A stretch of DNA of 64,000 bases from an uncultured Clostridia bacterium (lineage in GTDB: Bacteria > Bacillota > Clostridia > Christensenellales > Pumilibacteraceae): NCBI GenBank assembly GCA_947066105.1, contig CAMSYM010000002.1, forward strand, positions 148,390 through 212,389, in the 5' to 3' direction. Every line of letters starts with the position of its first letter. The first letter of the stretch is position 1. The position numbers and the translations under genes are program-made. Under the pieces are notes generated by a model. The model ran no database searches and had not been told where the DNA came from. It was given only the letters and a program-made list of their open reading frames with translations. Of this stretch, positions 9,589 through 19,082 are shown one piece after another.

Positions 9589-9839
9589 GCACATATGCTT
9601 CGACATATACGGCGTCAGCCGTCGCACCGCTCTCGGTCGTGTAGGAGGATCTACACTCCCGCCGCTCGGTGTTCGGACTTCCTTGTCTATGTCGCGCCTA
9701 TGCGCTCAATGCGCTTTGTGATAAGTACCGTGCGGTACGGTGTTCAAAATCAAGAAGAATTATATACGGCTGTTGCCGTACTTAATTTATATCCGCGGCG
9801 TCGAGTTCGGCGCCGCTTTTCTGTTGCTTTATTTCAAAT

Positions 9840-9846
9840 TGTCGAA
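9840..9846 (+). promoter_or_regulatory. Candidate Spo0A box (TGTCGAA)
   Basis: Exact TGTCGAA in the context TTGTCGAAAAAA, upstream of the Spo0A-C-like gene. Confidence 0.4.
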
Positions 9847-9941
9847 AAAATTGTTTTTATGTGTTTTTCCGTTACACTATATATTCTTATGTGGTTTGAC
9901 GGCAAAACACAGCATATTGCGTTACACATAAATACACATAA

Positions 9942-9948
9942 TTCGACA
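9942..9948 (-). promoter_or_regulatory. Candidate Spo0A box (TTCGACA = TGTCGAA on the minus strand)
   Basis: Exact inverse 0A-box core about 90 bp upstream of the ATG at 10036. Confidence 0.4.
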
Positions 9949-10035
9949 AAATGGACCGCATTTTAACCGTTGACTTTTCCAATGATATGCGATTTAATGG
10001 GATTACTCTTCGAGCGATCGAAAAAGGAGGTAGCA

Positions 10036-10362
10036 ATGGAAAGACGCGATTTTATAGTCGGAACGTTAGTGCGGACGGGATTCCGTTCGTCGCTCAAAGG
10101 TTTCGGACAATTCTGTATGTGTGTTGAAATGTACACCGACGACCGTTCGGCAACCATAGAAAGCATATACTCGCGCGTGGCGCGGTATTGCAATTGTACA
10201 AAAAGCTCGGTCGAAAAGAATTTGCGCCGACTGTTTGAGAGTTCCAATGCGCGTTCGGCGATAGGCGGGTTGTTCGGTATGGATTGCACCGAATCGGGCA
10301 ACAAAGAGATCGTCGCAACGTTTTCCAATTATGTGGAATTGCAACACGACGAGTACGCTTAG
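10036..10362 (+). CDS. Stand-alone Spo0A C-terminal (DNA-binding) domain-like protein
   Basis: 108 aa from the ATG at 10036 (RBS AAAGGAGG). Pattern LKGFGQFCMCVEMYTDDRSATIESIYSRVARYCNCTKSSVEKNLRRLFESS resembles the Spo0A C-terminal region (hIKGY..LREAI...Y......ITK.LYP.IAK.FNTT.S.VERAIRHAIE). No receiver domain. Confidence 0.72.
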   Translation: MERRDFIVGTLVRTGFRSSLKGFGQFCMCVEMYTDDRSATIESIYSRVARYCNCTKSSVEKNLRRLFESSNARSAIGGLFGMDCTESGNKEIVATFSNYVELQHDEYA

Positions 10363-13438: not shown

Positions 13439-16400
13439 ATGAAAAACAGTAAGTTCAAAAATTTAATAGCGGTGTTTATACTCGTTGCGGTCGCGGCGGC
13501 GTTTGCCGTCGTTTGCACCGCGTGCGCGGGAGACGCGCCCCCCCCCGTGGCTATAACCGTTACGTTTATGGACGGATCAAGGACCATATCGAGCGTTACG
13601 GGCAAGGCGGGCGATCCGCTCGCGCCGCCGACGGCGGAGCAGATCGAAAAGGCGGGGTACTCGTTTGACGGTTGGCTCGATGCCGACGGCAAGGCGGTCG
13701 ATCTGCCCCAAAAGTTCCCCGATACCGACGCGCGGTTTTACGCGAAGTATACCGCCGACGGCGAACAGACCGAAGATACGTACAAAATAATTTATAACGG
13801 TAATTTGGGTTCGATCTCCAAGGACGATGAGCTTGCGCCGTCGGTAGGCAAAACCGGCGAGACCGTCAAGCTCAAAGACGGAAAAGATTACCTTATGGTC
13901 GGGTACAGATTTCTCGGCTGGACGAAAACTCCCATCTATGTGTACGACGAAAACGACCCGTTCGATCCCTATCTTGCCGACGAAGACTTTGTCATAGGCG
14001 ACTCCGACGTCACGCTGTACGCGCAGTGGGCGACGGCTTATCGCGACGCTGCCGGCAAGAGCGCGGACGTCATATACGTTTTCGAGCCGCTTATCGATCA
14101 CGGGCTGGGCGGCGCGATCTATGCGAGCGCGGGCAAGCCCGATAAGCTCGGTTTTGTCGCGAGCGGCGACAAAACGGAGTCCGGCTATAAAGAGTTCGAA
14201 TTCTATTACGAAGACGGTAACTTTGTCGGCAGGCTTTTGGATAATCGCACTTACGCGACGCCGGGCGAGGAAGCGGGACAATACCTGTACCGCGACTATG
14301 TTGCGGGCGACGGTCCCGATTCCGTCGGCGGCGGGTATCTGATGCTCGACGGCTACGGGCTTGCCGTATATATAGAACAGCTCGGCGATCAAATAGCCAT
14401 GCGCGCGAGCGGTCGTTACGAATACGACGAAAAATACGACGACTATCTTTACGAATACATATACGAGGACGGGTCTGTCGGCGAAACGCATTTCGCGCTG
14501 ACCGACGGCGCGCCGTCCGATACGGAATTCGACGGGCTGTTTTTGTTCCAAGGCTACGAAAGCGGCGCATATTTGTTGTACGGTAACGGCGAGCTGTACG
14601 ATACCGTGCTGATGCTCAACGGCTACGGGTATGCTACGGTCTATTTTTACGATATGGCTACGGAAGAGCTTACGCTTATTTCGAGCGGCAAATATCTCGG
14701 CTCGGCGCAATACGAAGACTATCAGGGCGAATGGGAGTTCGTCGAAACGGACGGCGACTACGGCTCGTTCAAGTTTATAGTAAGCACCGTGAACAGCGGC
14801 AACGACGTTATCGCGATATTCGTGGAGTACGACGAAAGCTTTGCGGGTACGCTCAACGCGACGTCGGGCGACGGAGTTTTGTATTTGGACGGTTACGGCG
14901 GCGCGAGATACACCGCGAGCGGTATCGATTATACGGGCGAATGCGTTATAAGCGAAAGCGGCAATCTGTTGACGTTCGTACCGTATTTCGACGACGGCAA
15001 CGGGAATATCACGGTCGGCGGCACGATGTATTTCAACGTCGATCTTACCGAGCGCACGTTTACGGTCAACACGAGCGGGTTCGTGACCGACGGCACAAAG
15101 ATAGTCGACTATAAAGGCTCGGCGCAAGTGGTGGAGATACCGAACGATATTACTGCGATAGGCGAAAATGCGTTCAATTACGTAAATACCGACGTGTCGC
15201 TGATTTCGGTCGTCATTCCGTCAAGCGTTACCGAGATAGGCGCGCGGGCGTTCCAAAACGATTATACCCTCCGCCGCGCGGTGTTCCTTTCTGAAACTCC
15301 GATATCGATAGATTTTTCCGCCGCGAACGATCCGTTCAGATGGGGCGCGGGCGATTTTATAATAGTTGTGCCGGAAGGCTCGCAGGATGCGTACAAGGCG
15401 GCTTGGAGCGATTGCAAGTATTCGATAAAAGGCAGTGTGGAAGTCACCGTTTTGCCCGAATTCGAGATAGAGAACGGCGTGCTTTTAAGATACAACAAGC
15501 AGGAAGGCAGCGCCGACTTGCTTGATATAGTAATACCCGACGAAGTTACCGAGATCGCTGACAACGTGTTTCTCGGAGCTAAATTTCTGCGCTCGATCGA
15601 TCTCAACAACGTGACCGAGATAGGCGAGACTGCGTTCTACGGTTGCGCCGAGCTTGTCACGGTCAAATTCGCCAATGTCGTCGCGATAGGCGACGGCGCG
15701 TTCGGCGATTGCGTAAAATTGAGATCGAGCGGCGACGGCGAAGCTTTGGATCTGCCTGCGATCGCGCAAATAGGCGATTCTGCGTTTTACGGTTGCGTTG
15801 CGTTACGCCGCGTCGTCGTCGGCGAAAATATCGAGCGCGTGGGAAGCATGGCGTTCCGTGAATGCAATATATTCGCCGCAGATCCGCCGCTGTTTCTCGT
15901 CCTTACGGGCAACGACGTACCCGAAATGGGCGGCAACATCGCTATGGGAAATATCGCGTTCCGCATAGAGATCAACGATATATCGGTCGCGCTGAAATGC
16001 TTTACTACTAACGGCTGGAATGCGTACTGTCGGCATTTGTTCATACCGTCGGGCGACGAGAAGGGCAGTTATTTGAGCGGCGCTGACACGCTGGAATTGG
16101 ACGGCAGAGCGATATATCAATCGTCCGAAAATTGGCTGTACGCTATCGACGGCGAAAAAATAACGTTCTATGCCTACGACAGCGAGACCGCAACGTATAC
16201 GCAATTCGACGGAACGATCGTCGACGGGACAATAACCGTAAAAGTACACGGTGAGGGCGCGGACAGGACGTTCCGCAAAATTACGGGGCGCGTCACGTAC
16301 GTTACCGCCGACGGCAAATACACGCTGGAATGCAATGCCAAAGATCTCGATCCCGAAAGTTACGACGGGTATAGGGGTTATTGCGACGTCGTATTCAACG

Positions 16401-16813
16401 GAAATGCGTTGCAGATGTACGTAAACGGCTATAATTCCAAGACGATAAGCGGGTTTGTCGATGCCGACGGTTTGATGTATACGGCAAGTATTTCTTTCGA
16501 CGGCGATACCCTGGTCGTAAAACTTGTGCGCGACGAACGGCGCGAGAACATAGTCGCCGCGGACGGCAGTGTTTTGAACATACATTTCGACGGCAGTCTT
16601 GTATACGTGTACGGCGAGTTCAAGATCAAGGTCGGAACAAACAACGACGGTACCGATAAATATTTGGCGTTTTCGGAAGTGAGCGGCGTTGTAGCTTCGG
16701 TCGACGGCGATACGTATTCTTTTACTTTCAAATACTTGAACGATATTTATTCCATAACGGCGACGGTATCCGCGGACGGAAATTCGTTTGCTTATACATA
16801 TACGGTAAAATAA
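13439..16813 (+). CDS. Large surface lipoprotein with InlB-type (Listeria-Bacteroides) repeats, LDGYG repeats and BspA-type leucine-rich repeats
   Basis: Signal peptide with lipobox-like TAC (VAAAFAVVCTACAGD); InlB-like YKIIYNGNLGS...GYRFLGWTKTP...DVTLYAQW; BspA/LRR_5-like EIPNDITAIGENAF, IPSSVTEIGARAF, IPDEVTEIADNVF, VTEIGETAFYGCAEL. Confidence 0.85.
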   Translation: MKNSKFKNLIAVFILVAVAAAFAVVCTACAGDAPPPVAITVTFMDGSRTISSVTGKAGDPLAPPTAEQIEKAGYSFDGWLDADGKAVDLPQKFPDTDARFYAKYTADGEQTEDTYKIIYNGNLGSISKDDELAPSVGKTGETVKLKDGKDYLMVGYRFLGWTKTPIYVYDENDPFDPYLADEDFVIGDSDVTLYAQWATAYRDAAGKSADVIYVFEPLIDHGLGGAIYASAGKPDKLGFVASGDKTESGYKEFEFYYEDGNFVGRLLDNRTYATPGEEAGQYLYRDYVAGDGPDSVGGGYLMLDGYGLAVYIEQLGDQIAMRASGRYEYDEKYDDYLYEYIYEDGSVGETHFALTDGAPSDTEFDGLFLFQGYESGAYLLYGNGELYDTVLMLNGYGYATVYFYDMATEELTLISSGKYLGSAQYEDYQGEWEFVETDGDYGSFKFIVSTVNSGNDVIAIFVEYDESFAGTLNATSGDGVLYLDGYGGARYTASGIDYTGECVISESGNLLTFVPYFDDGNGNITVGGTMYFNVDLTERTFTVNTSGFVTDGTKIVDYKGSAQVVEIPNDITAIGENAFNYVNTDVSLISVVIPSSVTEIGARAFQNDYTLRRAVFLSETPISIDFSAANDPFRWGAGDFIIVVPEGSQDAYKAAWSDCKYSIKGSVEVTVLPEFEIENGVLLRYNKQEGSADLLDIVIPDEVTEIADNVFLGAKFLRSIDLNNVTEIGETAFYGCAELVTVKFANVVAIGDGAFGDCVKLRSSGDGEALDLPAIAQIGDSAFYGCVALRRVVVGENIERVGSMAFRECNIFAADPPLFLVLTGNDVPEMGGNIAMGNIAFRIEINDISVALKCFTTNGWNAYCRHLFIPSGDEKGSYLSGADTLELDGRAIYQSSENWLYAIDGEKITFYAYDSETATYTQFDGTIVDGTITVKVHGEGADRTFRKITGRVTYVTADGKYTLECNAKDLDPESYDGYRGYCDVVFNGNALQMYVNGYNSKTISGFVDADGLMYTASISFDGDTLVVKLVRDERRENIVAADGSVLNIHFDGSLVYVYGEFKIKVGTNNDGTDKYLAFSEVSGVVASVDGDTYSFTFKYLNDIYSITATVSADGNSFAYTYTVK

Positions 16814-16835
16814 AAAATAAAGGAGAAATAGGACT

Positions 16836-19082
16836 ATGAAAAAACTATCTCGTGCGATCATCGCGGTCATGCTGTGCGTGACGCTGTGCTTTACGGCTGT
16901 TGCGTGCGGCGATCCCGAAGGCGGCGGCGACGTTACGCCGACCGAGTACACCGTAACGTACGCGCTTGACGGCGGAAGCGGCACGTTGCCGACCGAAACG
17001 GCGAAAAAGGCGGGCGAAAAGTTCGCGCTCGCGTCGGGCGACGGTCTTACAAAGGATAAGCACTCGTTCGACGGTTGGAACGACGGCACTACGAAGTACG
17101 CCGCGGGTGCGGAATATACCATGCCCGCGAAAAACGTGACGTTCACTGCGGTGTGGAAAGCGGACGGTCAAACGCCCGATCCGCAACCGCCCGCTACATA
17201 TACCGTAACGTACGCGCTTGACGGCGGAAGCGGCACGTTGCCTACGGAAACGGCGAAAGAAGCGGGCGAAAAGTTCGCGCTCGCATCGGGCGACGGTCTT
17301 ACAAAGGATAAGCACTCGTTCGACGGTTGGAGCGACGGCACGACTAAGTACGCCGCCGGTGCGGAATATACTATGCCCGCGAGCAACGTGACGTTCACTG
17401 CGGTGTGGGAACTCGATTTGCCGAGCGGAGCTTGCAAGTTTACGGGAAGTTATACGACGCCCGATCATTCGGGTATGTTGCCGTTGCCCGGCGGAACTAT
17501 CGTAGAGATCTATATTGATTTCGAGAACGACGCGGTTTCTTATAAGCTGTCGACAGGCGAATTGAAGTCGGTCGCCGAATTGGATACCGTAAAATCGCCG
17601 AATGACAATAAATTCAGACCTGATAACTACGGTGAAGACGCTTTATATTACGAAGTGAAAATGCAAAGCGTTACTTACTATTTGTTGGTAAAGGCTGATT
17701 TTTCCAAGGTGTGGATCTGCGATCAAAACGATGAACCTATCGTAGGAGCTGAATTTGTACGCGACAACGGCGCGGAAGCGGCTACTTATACGGTCACATA
17801 TGATTTGAACGGCGGTACGGGAACTGTGCCGACCGAAACTGCTAAGGCGCAGGGCGCGAAATTTGAGCTTGCCTCCGCGACCGGATTTACAAAAGAAGGT
17901 CATATCTTCGACGGTTGGAGCGACGGTACGACAAAATATGCGGCCGGCGCACGGTATACTATGCCTGCAAGCAATATAACGTTCACTGCGCAATGGCTCG
18001 ACGAGAGTGAGATCACGAGATATACCGTGACTTATGTTAAGCCCGACGGCGTTACCGGCGACGTACCGGAAACAGTTACGGTAGACGAAGGAACTCAGGT
18101 CACGCTCGCGCCCGCAGATCAGTTTGCCAAAGAGGGATGGACTTTCCAAAACTGGTCTGTCAGCACGTATCCCGCGCTCCGCGCGCCGAATACAAAAATA
18201 ACGGTCAATGCAAATACCACCATAACGCCTGTTTTCGCACAATCGTATACGGGAGATTTAGAAATTATCAAAATACTCGATAACGGTACTCTCGTACATG
18301 ACGGGTATACATATAGCTTTACGAAAAACGGCGATATTCTCACCGTTACAGACTTTTTCGTTACGTATATCAAATTAAACGAAAGCGCTAAGACATACAC
18401 AGTTTCCGATGACATGGAATCCTTTGAATTTACTGCGACTGACGGAACTAAGCTTACGTTTGACGGCTTTGGGGTAGCGATGCTCGGTACGCATAAAGGC
18501 ACATACGCTCTCAACGATCAAGGCTCGGCGATCACGTTGGTATTCGGGGATAATACATATACCGATATTGCTTTTGCGGGAGCATATCCCAATCTTATTA
18601 TAAACGTAACGATCAATGTCGACGGGACGGATTATGTATTCGGCAACGGCGGAGCAACAGGACCCGAAAATCCCGAACCGAGCGATGACAAACTTGCGGA
18701 TTATGTCGGAGCGACAAGCAGTACGGCGGTCGTTTACGGTTATGCTTCCGTTGCCGATGCCGAAAGTGCGAATAACACAATCAGTGCAACAAATTCCGCG
18801 AATGCCGAAAGAACTTTTTACCAAGCAAAAGTTTATAAAAATTACTCTAATAAATTGTTGATAACCATACAAGCCAATGTCGGGAGCGTTAGTACGGTAA
18901 AAGATGGTCAAGGACAGGATATCATTATTGCCGACGATACGCCCAATCAAACGATATATGTGACTTCGGCTTCGTATGCAAATCAATTTATCGTTACTTT
19001 CAGCAAGGATAGCGAAGGAAAGCGCGTTATGACTGTCAAATACGGCGATACGACAGTAACATGGGTCGAAATTACGGCATAG
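16836..19082 (+). CDS. Surface lipoprotein with tandem InlB (Flg_new/Listeria-Bacteroides) repeats
   Basis: Lipobox LCFTAVACGD; repeated YTVTYALDGGSGTLPTETAKKAGEKFALASGDGLTKDKHSFDGWNDGTTKYAAGAEYTMPAKNVTFTAVW. Confidence 0.88.
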   Translation: MKKLSRAIIAVMLCVTLCFTAVACGDPEGGGDVTPTEYTVTYALDGGSGTLPTETAKKAGEKFALASGDGLTKDKHSFDGWNDGTTKYAAGAEYTMPAKNVTFTAVWKADGQTPDPQPPATYTVTYALDGGSGTLPTETAKEAGEKFALASGDGLTKDKHSFDGWSDGTTKYAAGAEYTMPASNVTFTAVWELDLPSGACKFTGSYTTPDHSGMLPLPGGTIVEIYIDFENDAVSYKLSTGELKSVAELDTVKSPNDNKFRPDNYGEDALYYEVKMQSVTYYLLVKADFSKVWICDQNDEPIVGAEFVRDNGAEAATYTVTYDLNGGTGTVPTETAKAQGAKFELASATGFTKEGHIFDGWSDGTTKYAAGARYTMPASNITFTAQWLDESEITRYTVTYVKPDGVTGDVPETVTVDEGTQVTLAPADQFAKEGWTFQNWSVSTYPALRAPNTKITVNANTTITPVFAQSYTGDLEIIKILDNGTLVHDGYTYSFTKNGDILTVTDFFVTYIKLNESAKTYTVSDDMESFEFTATDGTKLTFDGFGVAMLGTHKGTYALNDQGSAITLVFGDNTYTDIAFAGAYPNLIINVTINVDGTDYVFGNGGATGPENPEPSDDKLADYVGATSSTAVVYGYASVADAESANNTISATNSANAERTFYQAKVYKNYSNKLLITIQANVGSVSTVKDGQGQDIIIADDTPNQTIYVTSASYANQFIVTFSKDSEGKRVMTVKYGDTTVTWVEITA
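16947..17156 (+). repeat. InlB repeat unit 1 (210 bp, near-identical to unit 2)
   Basis: Direct comparison with 17199-17408. Confidence 0.9.
17199..17408 (+). repeat. InlB repeat unit 2 (210 bp, near-identical to unit 1)
   Basis: Direct comparison with 16947-17156; 252-bp period. Confidence 0.9.

Follow-up and report, generated by a model that had tools for sequence, protein, structure and literature searches.

The genome of a member of the genus Anaerocaecibacter (family Pumilibacteraceae) carries, between a germination operon and argH-argG, a gene whose product resembles the DNA-binding output domain of Spo0A and nothing else of that protein. It raises the question of what such a domain does when it is made without its receiver, and which protein reads its promoter. 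The DNA analysed was a stretch of 64,000 nucleotides of one contig (the window), in which the following features were recognized around the gene, designated P0001 after its product:

9795–9822, forward strand: rpsU intrinsic terminator, separating rpsU from the P0001 gene
9840–9846, forward strand: TGTCGAA, probably incidental, not conserved in orthologues
9914–9921, forward strand: conserved ATATTGCG(G) element (TTGCGGT in 13 of 17 upstream regions)
9926–9951, forward strand: array of three half-boxes spaced by 10 bp, ACATAA / ACATAA / ACAAAA (TTTTGT on the reverse strand), a zero-mismatch pattern match
9942–9948, reverse strand: TGTCGAA, an exact 0A-box core lying within the array, by sequence match; its CGAA half varies among orthologues
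9970–9998, forward strand: predicted sigma-A promoter TTGACT-N17-TTTAAT, from conservation among orthologues
10024–10030, forward strand: ribosome-binding site AAGGAGG, read from the sequence
10036–10362, forward strand: P0001, a stand-alone Spo0A_C-domain protein of 108 aa, supported by Pfam, fold match, orthologues, and dN/dS

The original prediction had called this reading frame with a strong ribosome-binding site, and both calls were correct. Pfam assigned P0001 to PF08769 (Spo0A_C) with an E-value of 1.9e-10 and 41.1 bits against a curated cut-off of 25; residues 10–95 aligned to positions 4–99 of the 104-position model, and the single domain spanned nearly the entire length of the protein. 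No receiver domain with a phospho-acceptor Asp was detected by Pfam in this one-domain protein, and the Spo0A equivalog model TIGR02875 gave 13.7 bits where 200 are required. On these two grounds P0001 is classed with the Spo0A output domain yet outside Spo0A proper. A sequence search of the PDB returned two Spo0A-C entries alone, both weak. The AlphaFold model, built from 12 orthologues, was confident (pLDDT 91.7), and its top seven PDB fold matches were Spo0A-C chains of 1LQ1 and 1FC3 with TM scores of 0.68–0.81; apart from these chains, the fold comparison yielded no close match. Thus, the Pfam match and the structural check proposed with the original prediction both bore out its view of the protein as a Spo0A C-terminal domain without a receiver. 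The C-terminus, described there as divergent, has indeed diverged, and loops have become shorter, yet the fold retains all six helices. Identity to Spo0A is about 22%. The helix (S/A)VEKN(L/I)RR, nearly invariant among P0001 orthologues, corresponds to RVERAIR (RVER..R) of Spo0A, whose residues we take to be the base-contacting ones; Glu and the last Arg are kept, while the first Arg is replaced by Ser and the second by Lys.

The whole source genome contained seven Spo0A_C matches in Pfam searches: a full-length Spo0A on contig C15, whose presence elsewhere in the genome was to be checked, the P0001 frame, and five other stand-alone Spo0A_C-like frames; two of the stand-alone frames scored below the Pfam cut-off. 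One Spo0A_C-like gene lies inside a 583-bp repeat present in 97.8% identical copies (C4:80979 and C8:65500; L004/L005), as though it had moved as a cassette. At C3:32635 and 33133 (L065), two Spo0A_C-like genes stand in tandem, the first with its own 10-bp-phased ACAAAA array. Elsewhere in the window, at 13439–19082, two large predicted proteins contain repeated YTVTY-L-GG-like stretches, probably surface repeats.

Orthologues of P0001 were found in 16 of the 19 other genomes of the genus searched (57–100% identity); beyond Anaerocaecibacter, no clear ones were found. In the 11 other genomes with fetched flanks, the orthologues had the gerAA-AB-AC germination operon upstream and argH-argG downstream, synteny being judged only as far as the contigs reach. 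In the window, rpsU sits between the gerA operon, whose identity was confirmed by Pfam, and the P0001 gene. In genome G010, the gene next to argH is a different one, which means that the P0001 gene is absent from that place, and a search for argH in G011 and G012 gave no match. The orthologues are under purifying selection, with dN/dS far below 1 (for example, dN 0.04 and dS 0.89). SpoIVA is present in 17 of the 20 genomes of the genus, which shows sporulation genes to be part of the lineage's repertoire. A gene tree built from 75 domains was poorly resolved overall; in it the P0001 orthologues formed a clade (100/99), and the other stand-alone Spo0A_C genes of the genus formed a separate one (95/86).

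Judging by its sequence, the rpsU terminator ends upstream transcription before the P0001 gene. A TTGA(C/T)-N17-TTTAAT-like element with small variants is present upstream of every syntenic orthologue; its copy in the window, whose second hexamer has no A at position 2, was not listed by a consensus scanner. The two TGTCGAA boxes of the original prediction are present as described. They were placed in a long leader, whereas they lie upstream of the deduced promoter, and the leader would be about 30 nt. The 9840 box is probably incidental: the nearest orthologue lacks it despite a 100% identical protein, and so do the other orthologues. That orthologue (G006, L008) has coding DNA 98.5% identical to the P0001 gene, and the two upstream regions clearly differ, insertions and deletions included. 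Over the whole window, TGTCGAA was not enriched (15 copies versus 12.3 expected), and counting it on this scale proved uninformative. There is a third copy at 9599, and all three non-coding copies of the window lie between rpsU and the P0001 gene; with permuted 7-mers, a count of three non-coding copies arises in 7% of cases.

The second box fared better. When the orthologue upstream regions were aligned on their promoter, ACAAAA stood at a fixed 18 bp upstream of the −35 hexamer, every one of its positions being identical in at least 14 of the 15 aligned orthologues, and further half-box copies continued upstream of it in 10-bp steps. In the window, the half-boxes begin at positions 9926, 9936, and 9946, and the exact 0A box TTTTGTCGAA at 9942 takes in the third of them. 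Accordingly, the TTTTGT half is conserved, phased, and fixed in place, whereas the CGAA half is found in part of the genus only. The period-10 score averaged 15.4 in the orthologue upstream regions versus 12.2 in shuffles (sd 0.2, which overstates independence since the orthologues are related), and none of the other periods from 6 to 15 scored above 13.5. A ATATTGCGG element precedes the promoter-proximal ACAAAA by 14 or about 24 bp, two spacings that differ by one helical turn. An Rfam search gave no match. The ATTGCGGTGCATAAA block was discarded as a regulon marker, since most of its matches away from the P0001 gene fall within coding sequence, and TTTGTCGAA was only weakly over-represented genome-wide (78 versus 61 for the reversed control).

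The array is shared with sister genes. The pattern AYAWAAN4AYAWAAN4ACAAAA, built from the promoters of P0001 orthologues and searched with one mismatch allowed, gave 59 matches in the 20 genomes of the genus versus 18 for the reversed control. Six were at P0001 orthologues, and 17 were at 15 other Spo0A_C genes, none of which had been used in building the pattern; by estimate, well under one match was expected there by chance. Thirteen of these 15 genes were verified on fetched DNA by means of a home-made profile; G000:C3:32477 was checked via its upstream sequence, and G005:C54:84804 was assigned from coordinates. Also counted among the 15 is a G013 gene (C14, L202) with a receiver-like and a Spo0A_C part, distinct from Spo0A, which has a reverse-orientation array some 40 bp before its start. 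The remaining 36 matches were away from Spo0A_C genes, mostly at miscellaneous places, and no convincing regulon was recognized among them in the 20 genomes. A leaderless lipoprotein-like gene, oriented divergently from secE/nusG, is matched repeatedly (L204, L207) and is possibly a regulon member; matches in G009:C22, G010:C78, and G012:C27 carry similar array letters. In class-B sister genes, the spacer of the promoter contains a TTGTCGAA-like box. The spo0A promoter of the genus carries, in most genomes inspected, a single NNCGACAAAA box (TTTTGTCG) and no array; by eye, it is 28 bp from the −35 hexamer in the genome of the window, a distance in helical phase with 18 bp.

Phasing extends beyond the genus. 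Over the order as a whole, the regions upstream of stand-alone Spo0A_C genes had a mean period-10 z of 0.95 versus −0.06 in controls, which were crude upstream regions of neighbouring ORFs (p 3e-7); in the AT-rich subset the values were 0.81 and 0.08 (p 0.003). Phased TTTTGT triplets, a score chosen after the target sequences had been seen, occurred in 6 of 44 such regions and in 1 of 173 controls. In G023, from another genus, stand-alone Spo0A_C genes (L098, L103) are preceded by CCC(A/G)AAA-like units repeated roughly every 10 bp, so that the half-site differs and the phasing is similar. Within Anaerocaecibacter, the evenly spaced Spo0A-box-like sites at the promoters of many stand-alone genes suggest an undescribed control circuit.

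P0001 is probably a phosphorylation-independent DNA-binding protein of the Spo0A-C type, with a promoter read by Spo0A-type proteins, be it Spo0A, P0001 itself, or a sister. The second part is suggested by the conserved 10-bp-phased array, common to paralogous genes and containing one exact 0A box. The original prediction of an autoregulated or Spo0A-controlled gene therefore stands insofar as the upstream region looks read by a Spo0A-type protein, though on evidence other than that offered. Spo0A-C binds direct repeats, such as those at abrB, about one helical turn apart, and the array spacing matches this geometry. As a single-domain protein derived from the Spo0A output domain, P0001 would not be a direct target of the phosphorelay, in agreement with the original prediction. 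The isolated DNA-binding domain of Spo0A binds its targets without phosphorylation, the receiver being normally inhibitory (PMC3485338); hence, P0001 should bind DNA whenever it is made, with its activity set by abundance. Its level would be set at the sigma-A-type promoter of its gene: adjacent Spo0A-type proteins, spaced by one helical turn, may occupy the half-box row that ends 18 bp before the −35 hexamer. Through related sites, P0001 probably modulates Spo0A-type control in the genus, tuning it or competing with it. The sign of the regulation is a matter of inference; in B. subtilis, the 0A boxes at spo0A were modelled as mainly repressive (PMC12090719). Against this reading, the array shows no conservation among orthologues of bases C4 and G5 of TGTCGAA, which the isolated Spo0A domain contacts together with G2 (PMC3485338); the Arg of RVER is Lys in P0001; and 36 of the 59 pattern matches lie away from Spo0A_C genes, with no convincing regulon among them.

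As to which protein occupies the array, Spo0A~P is a possible reader because the spo0A promoter of the genus carries the same box. That Spo0A~P is the sole reader, and P0001 an ordinary Spo0A target that regulates unrelated genes with a specificity of its own, seems rather unlikely to us. The exact box in the window, the class-B spacer boxes, and a sister gene in G010 that keeps its array though the P0001 gene is absent beside argH all agree with it. On the other hand, spo0A itself has a single box instead of an array, and box bases 4–5 vary (CG, CC, or AT) in step with P0001 helix residues 55–56 among the genus orthologues while the DNA-binding helix of Spo0A is invariant across the genus. 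The latter favours P0001 as a reader; since the species tree shows no more than about two such changes, the covariation fails as a test and serves as a hint. Tentatively, and with less confidence than in the reading of P0001 given above, we propose that a genus-wide set of receiver-less Spo0A-C proteins would line up head to tail along 0A-like arrays with 10-bp phasing in one another's promoters and form a phosphorylation-independent auto- and cross-regulatory circuit beside Spo0A, protein and box specificities co-evolving.

Phased A-tracts can bend DNA without any regulator, which counts against an array read by Spo0A-type proteins, and the A-tracts, their 10-bp spacing, and their place upstream of the −35 hexamer would suit intrinsically curved DNA or a UP element. 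We regard an array of this kind with no specific regulator as improbable: the C of ACAAAA is kept in 14 of 15 orthologues and another C 10 bp downstream in 15 of 15, the pattern is concentrated at Spo0A_C genes, and upstream regions of neighbouring genes have no period-10 excess. Slightly less probable still is an origin of P0001 in a phage or mobile element, followed by fixation in the chromosome. Spo0A_C-only proteins are known from gut phages, and two sister copies of the source genome lie in the 583-bp repeat; however, no phage or plasmid record matched P0001 by sequence, and the synteny of its gene is fixed in the chromosome. A functionless, decaying fragment of Spo0A, to which the weak overall similarity might point, is refuted by the intact and syntenic frame across the genus, the low dN/dS, and the conserved promoter and helix.

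The Spo0A_C domain is well known, and Spo0A_C-only proteins have been annotated, including in gut phages. One survey reported enrichment of PF08769 in gut mobile elements (PMC6907783). Among the matches listed, tallied by hand from open-frame lengths, stand-alone Spo0A_C was present in at least about 43 of the order's 61 genomes versus at least about 9 of the 112 genomes from the rest of the class. In the open-access literature we found no description of a chromosomal stand-alone Spo0A_C family, of its abundance in the order, or of phased promoter arrays. If these proteins bind 0A-like DNA unphosphorylated, they would add an extra layer to sporulation control in these gut bacteria. A named strain of the genus exists (Anaerocaecibacter muris CLA-AA-M11), so this should be testable. 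Compared with the Spo0A-C domain (1LQ1/1FC3, PF08769), P0001 is alike in fold and, in part, in recognition-helix pattern and, by prediction, likely alike in its 0A-like DNA target; it differs from Spo0A in the missing receiver, the low identity, the shortened loops, the Arg-to-Lys change in the helix, and a partly different box. With the laboratory-isolated DNA-binding domain of Spo0A (PMC3485338) it shares the single-domain form and should share phosphorylation-free binding, but it is a natural, separately regulated gene. The Spo0A_C-only proteins of gut phages known from BFVD models (for example, Myoviridae sp. ctSGm32) likewise have a single Spo0A_C domain and a similar size; they are phage-borne and were not found by sequence search, whereas P0001 is a fixed chromosomal gene.
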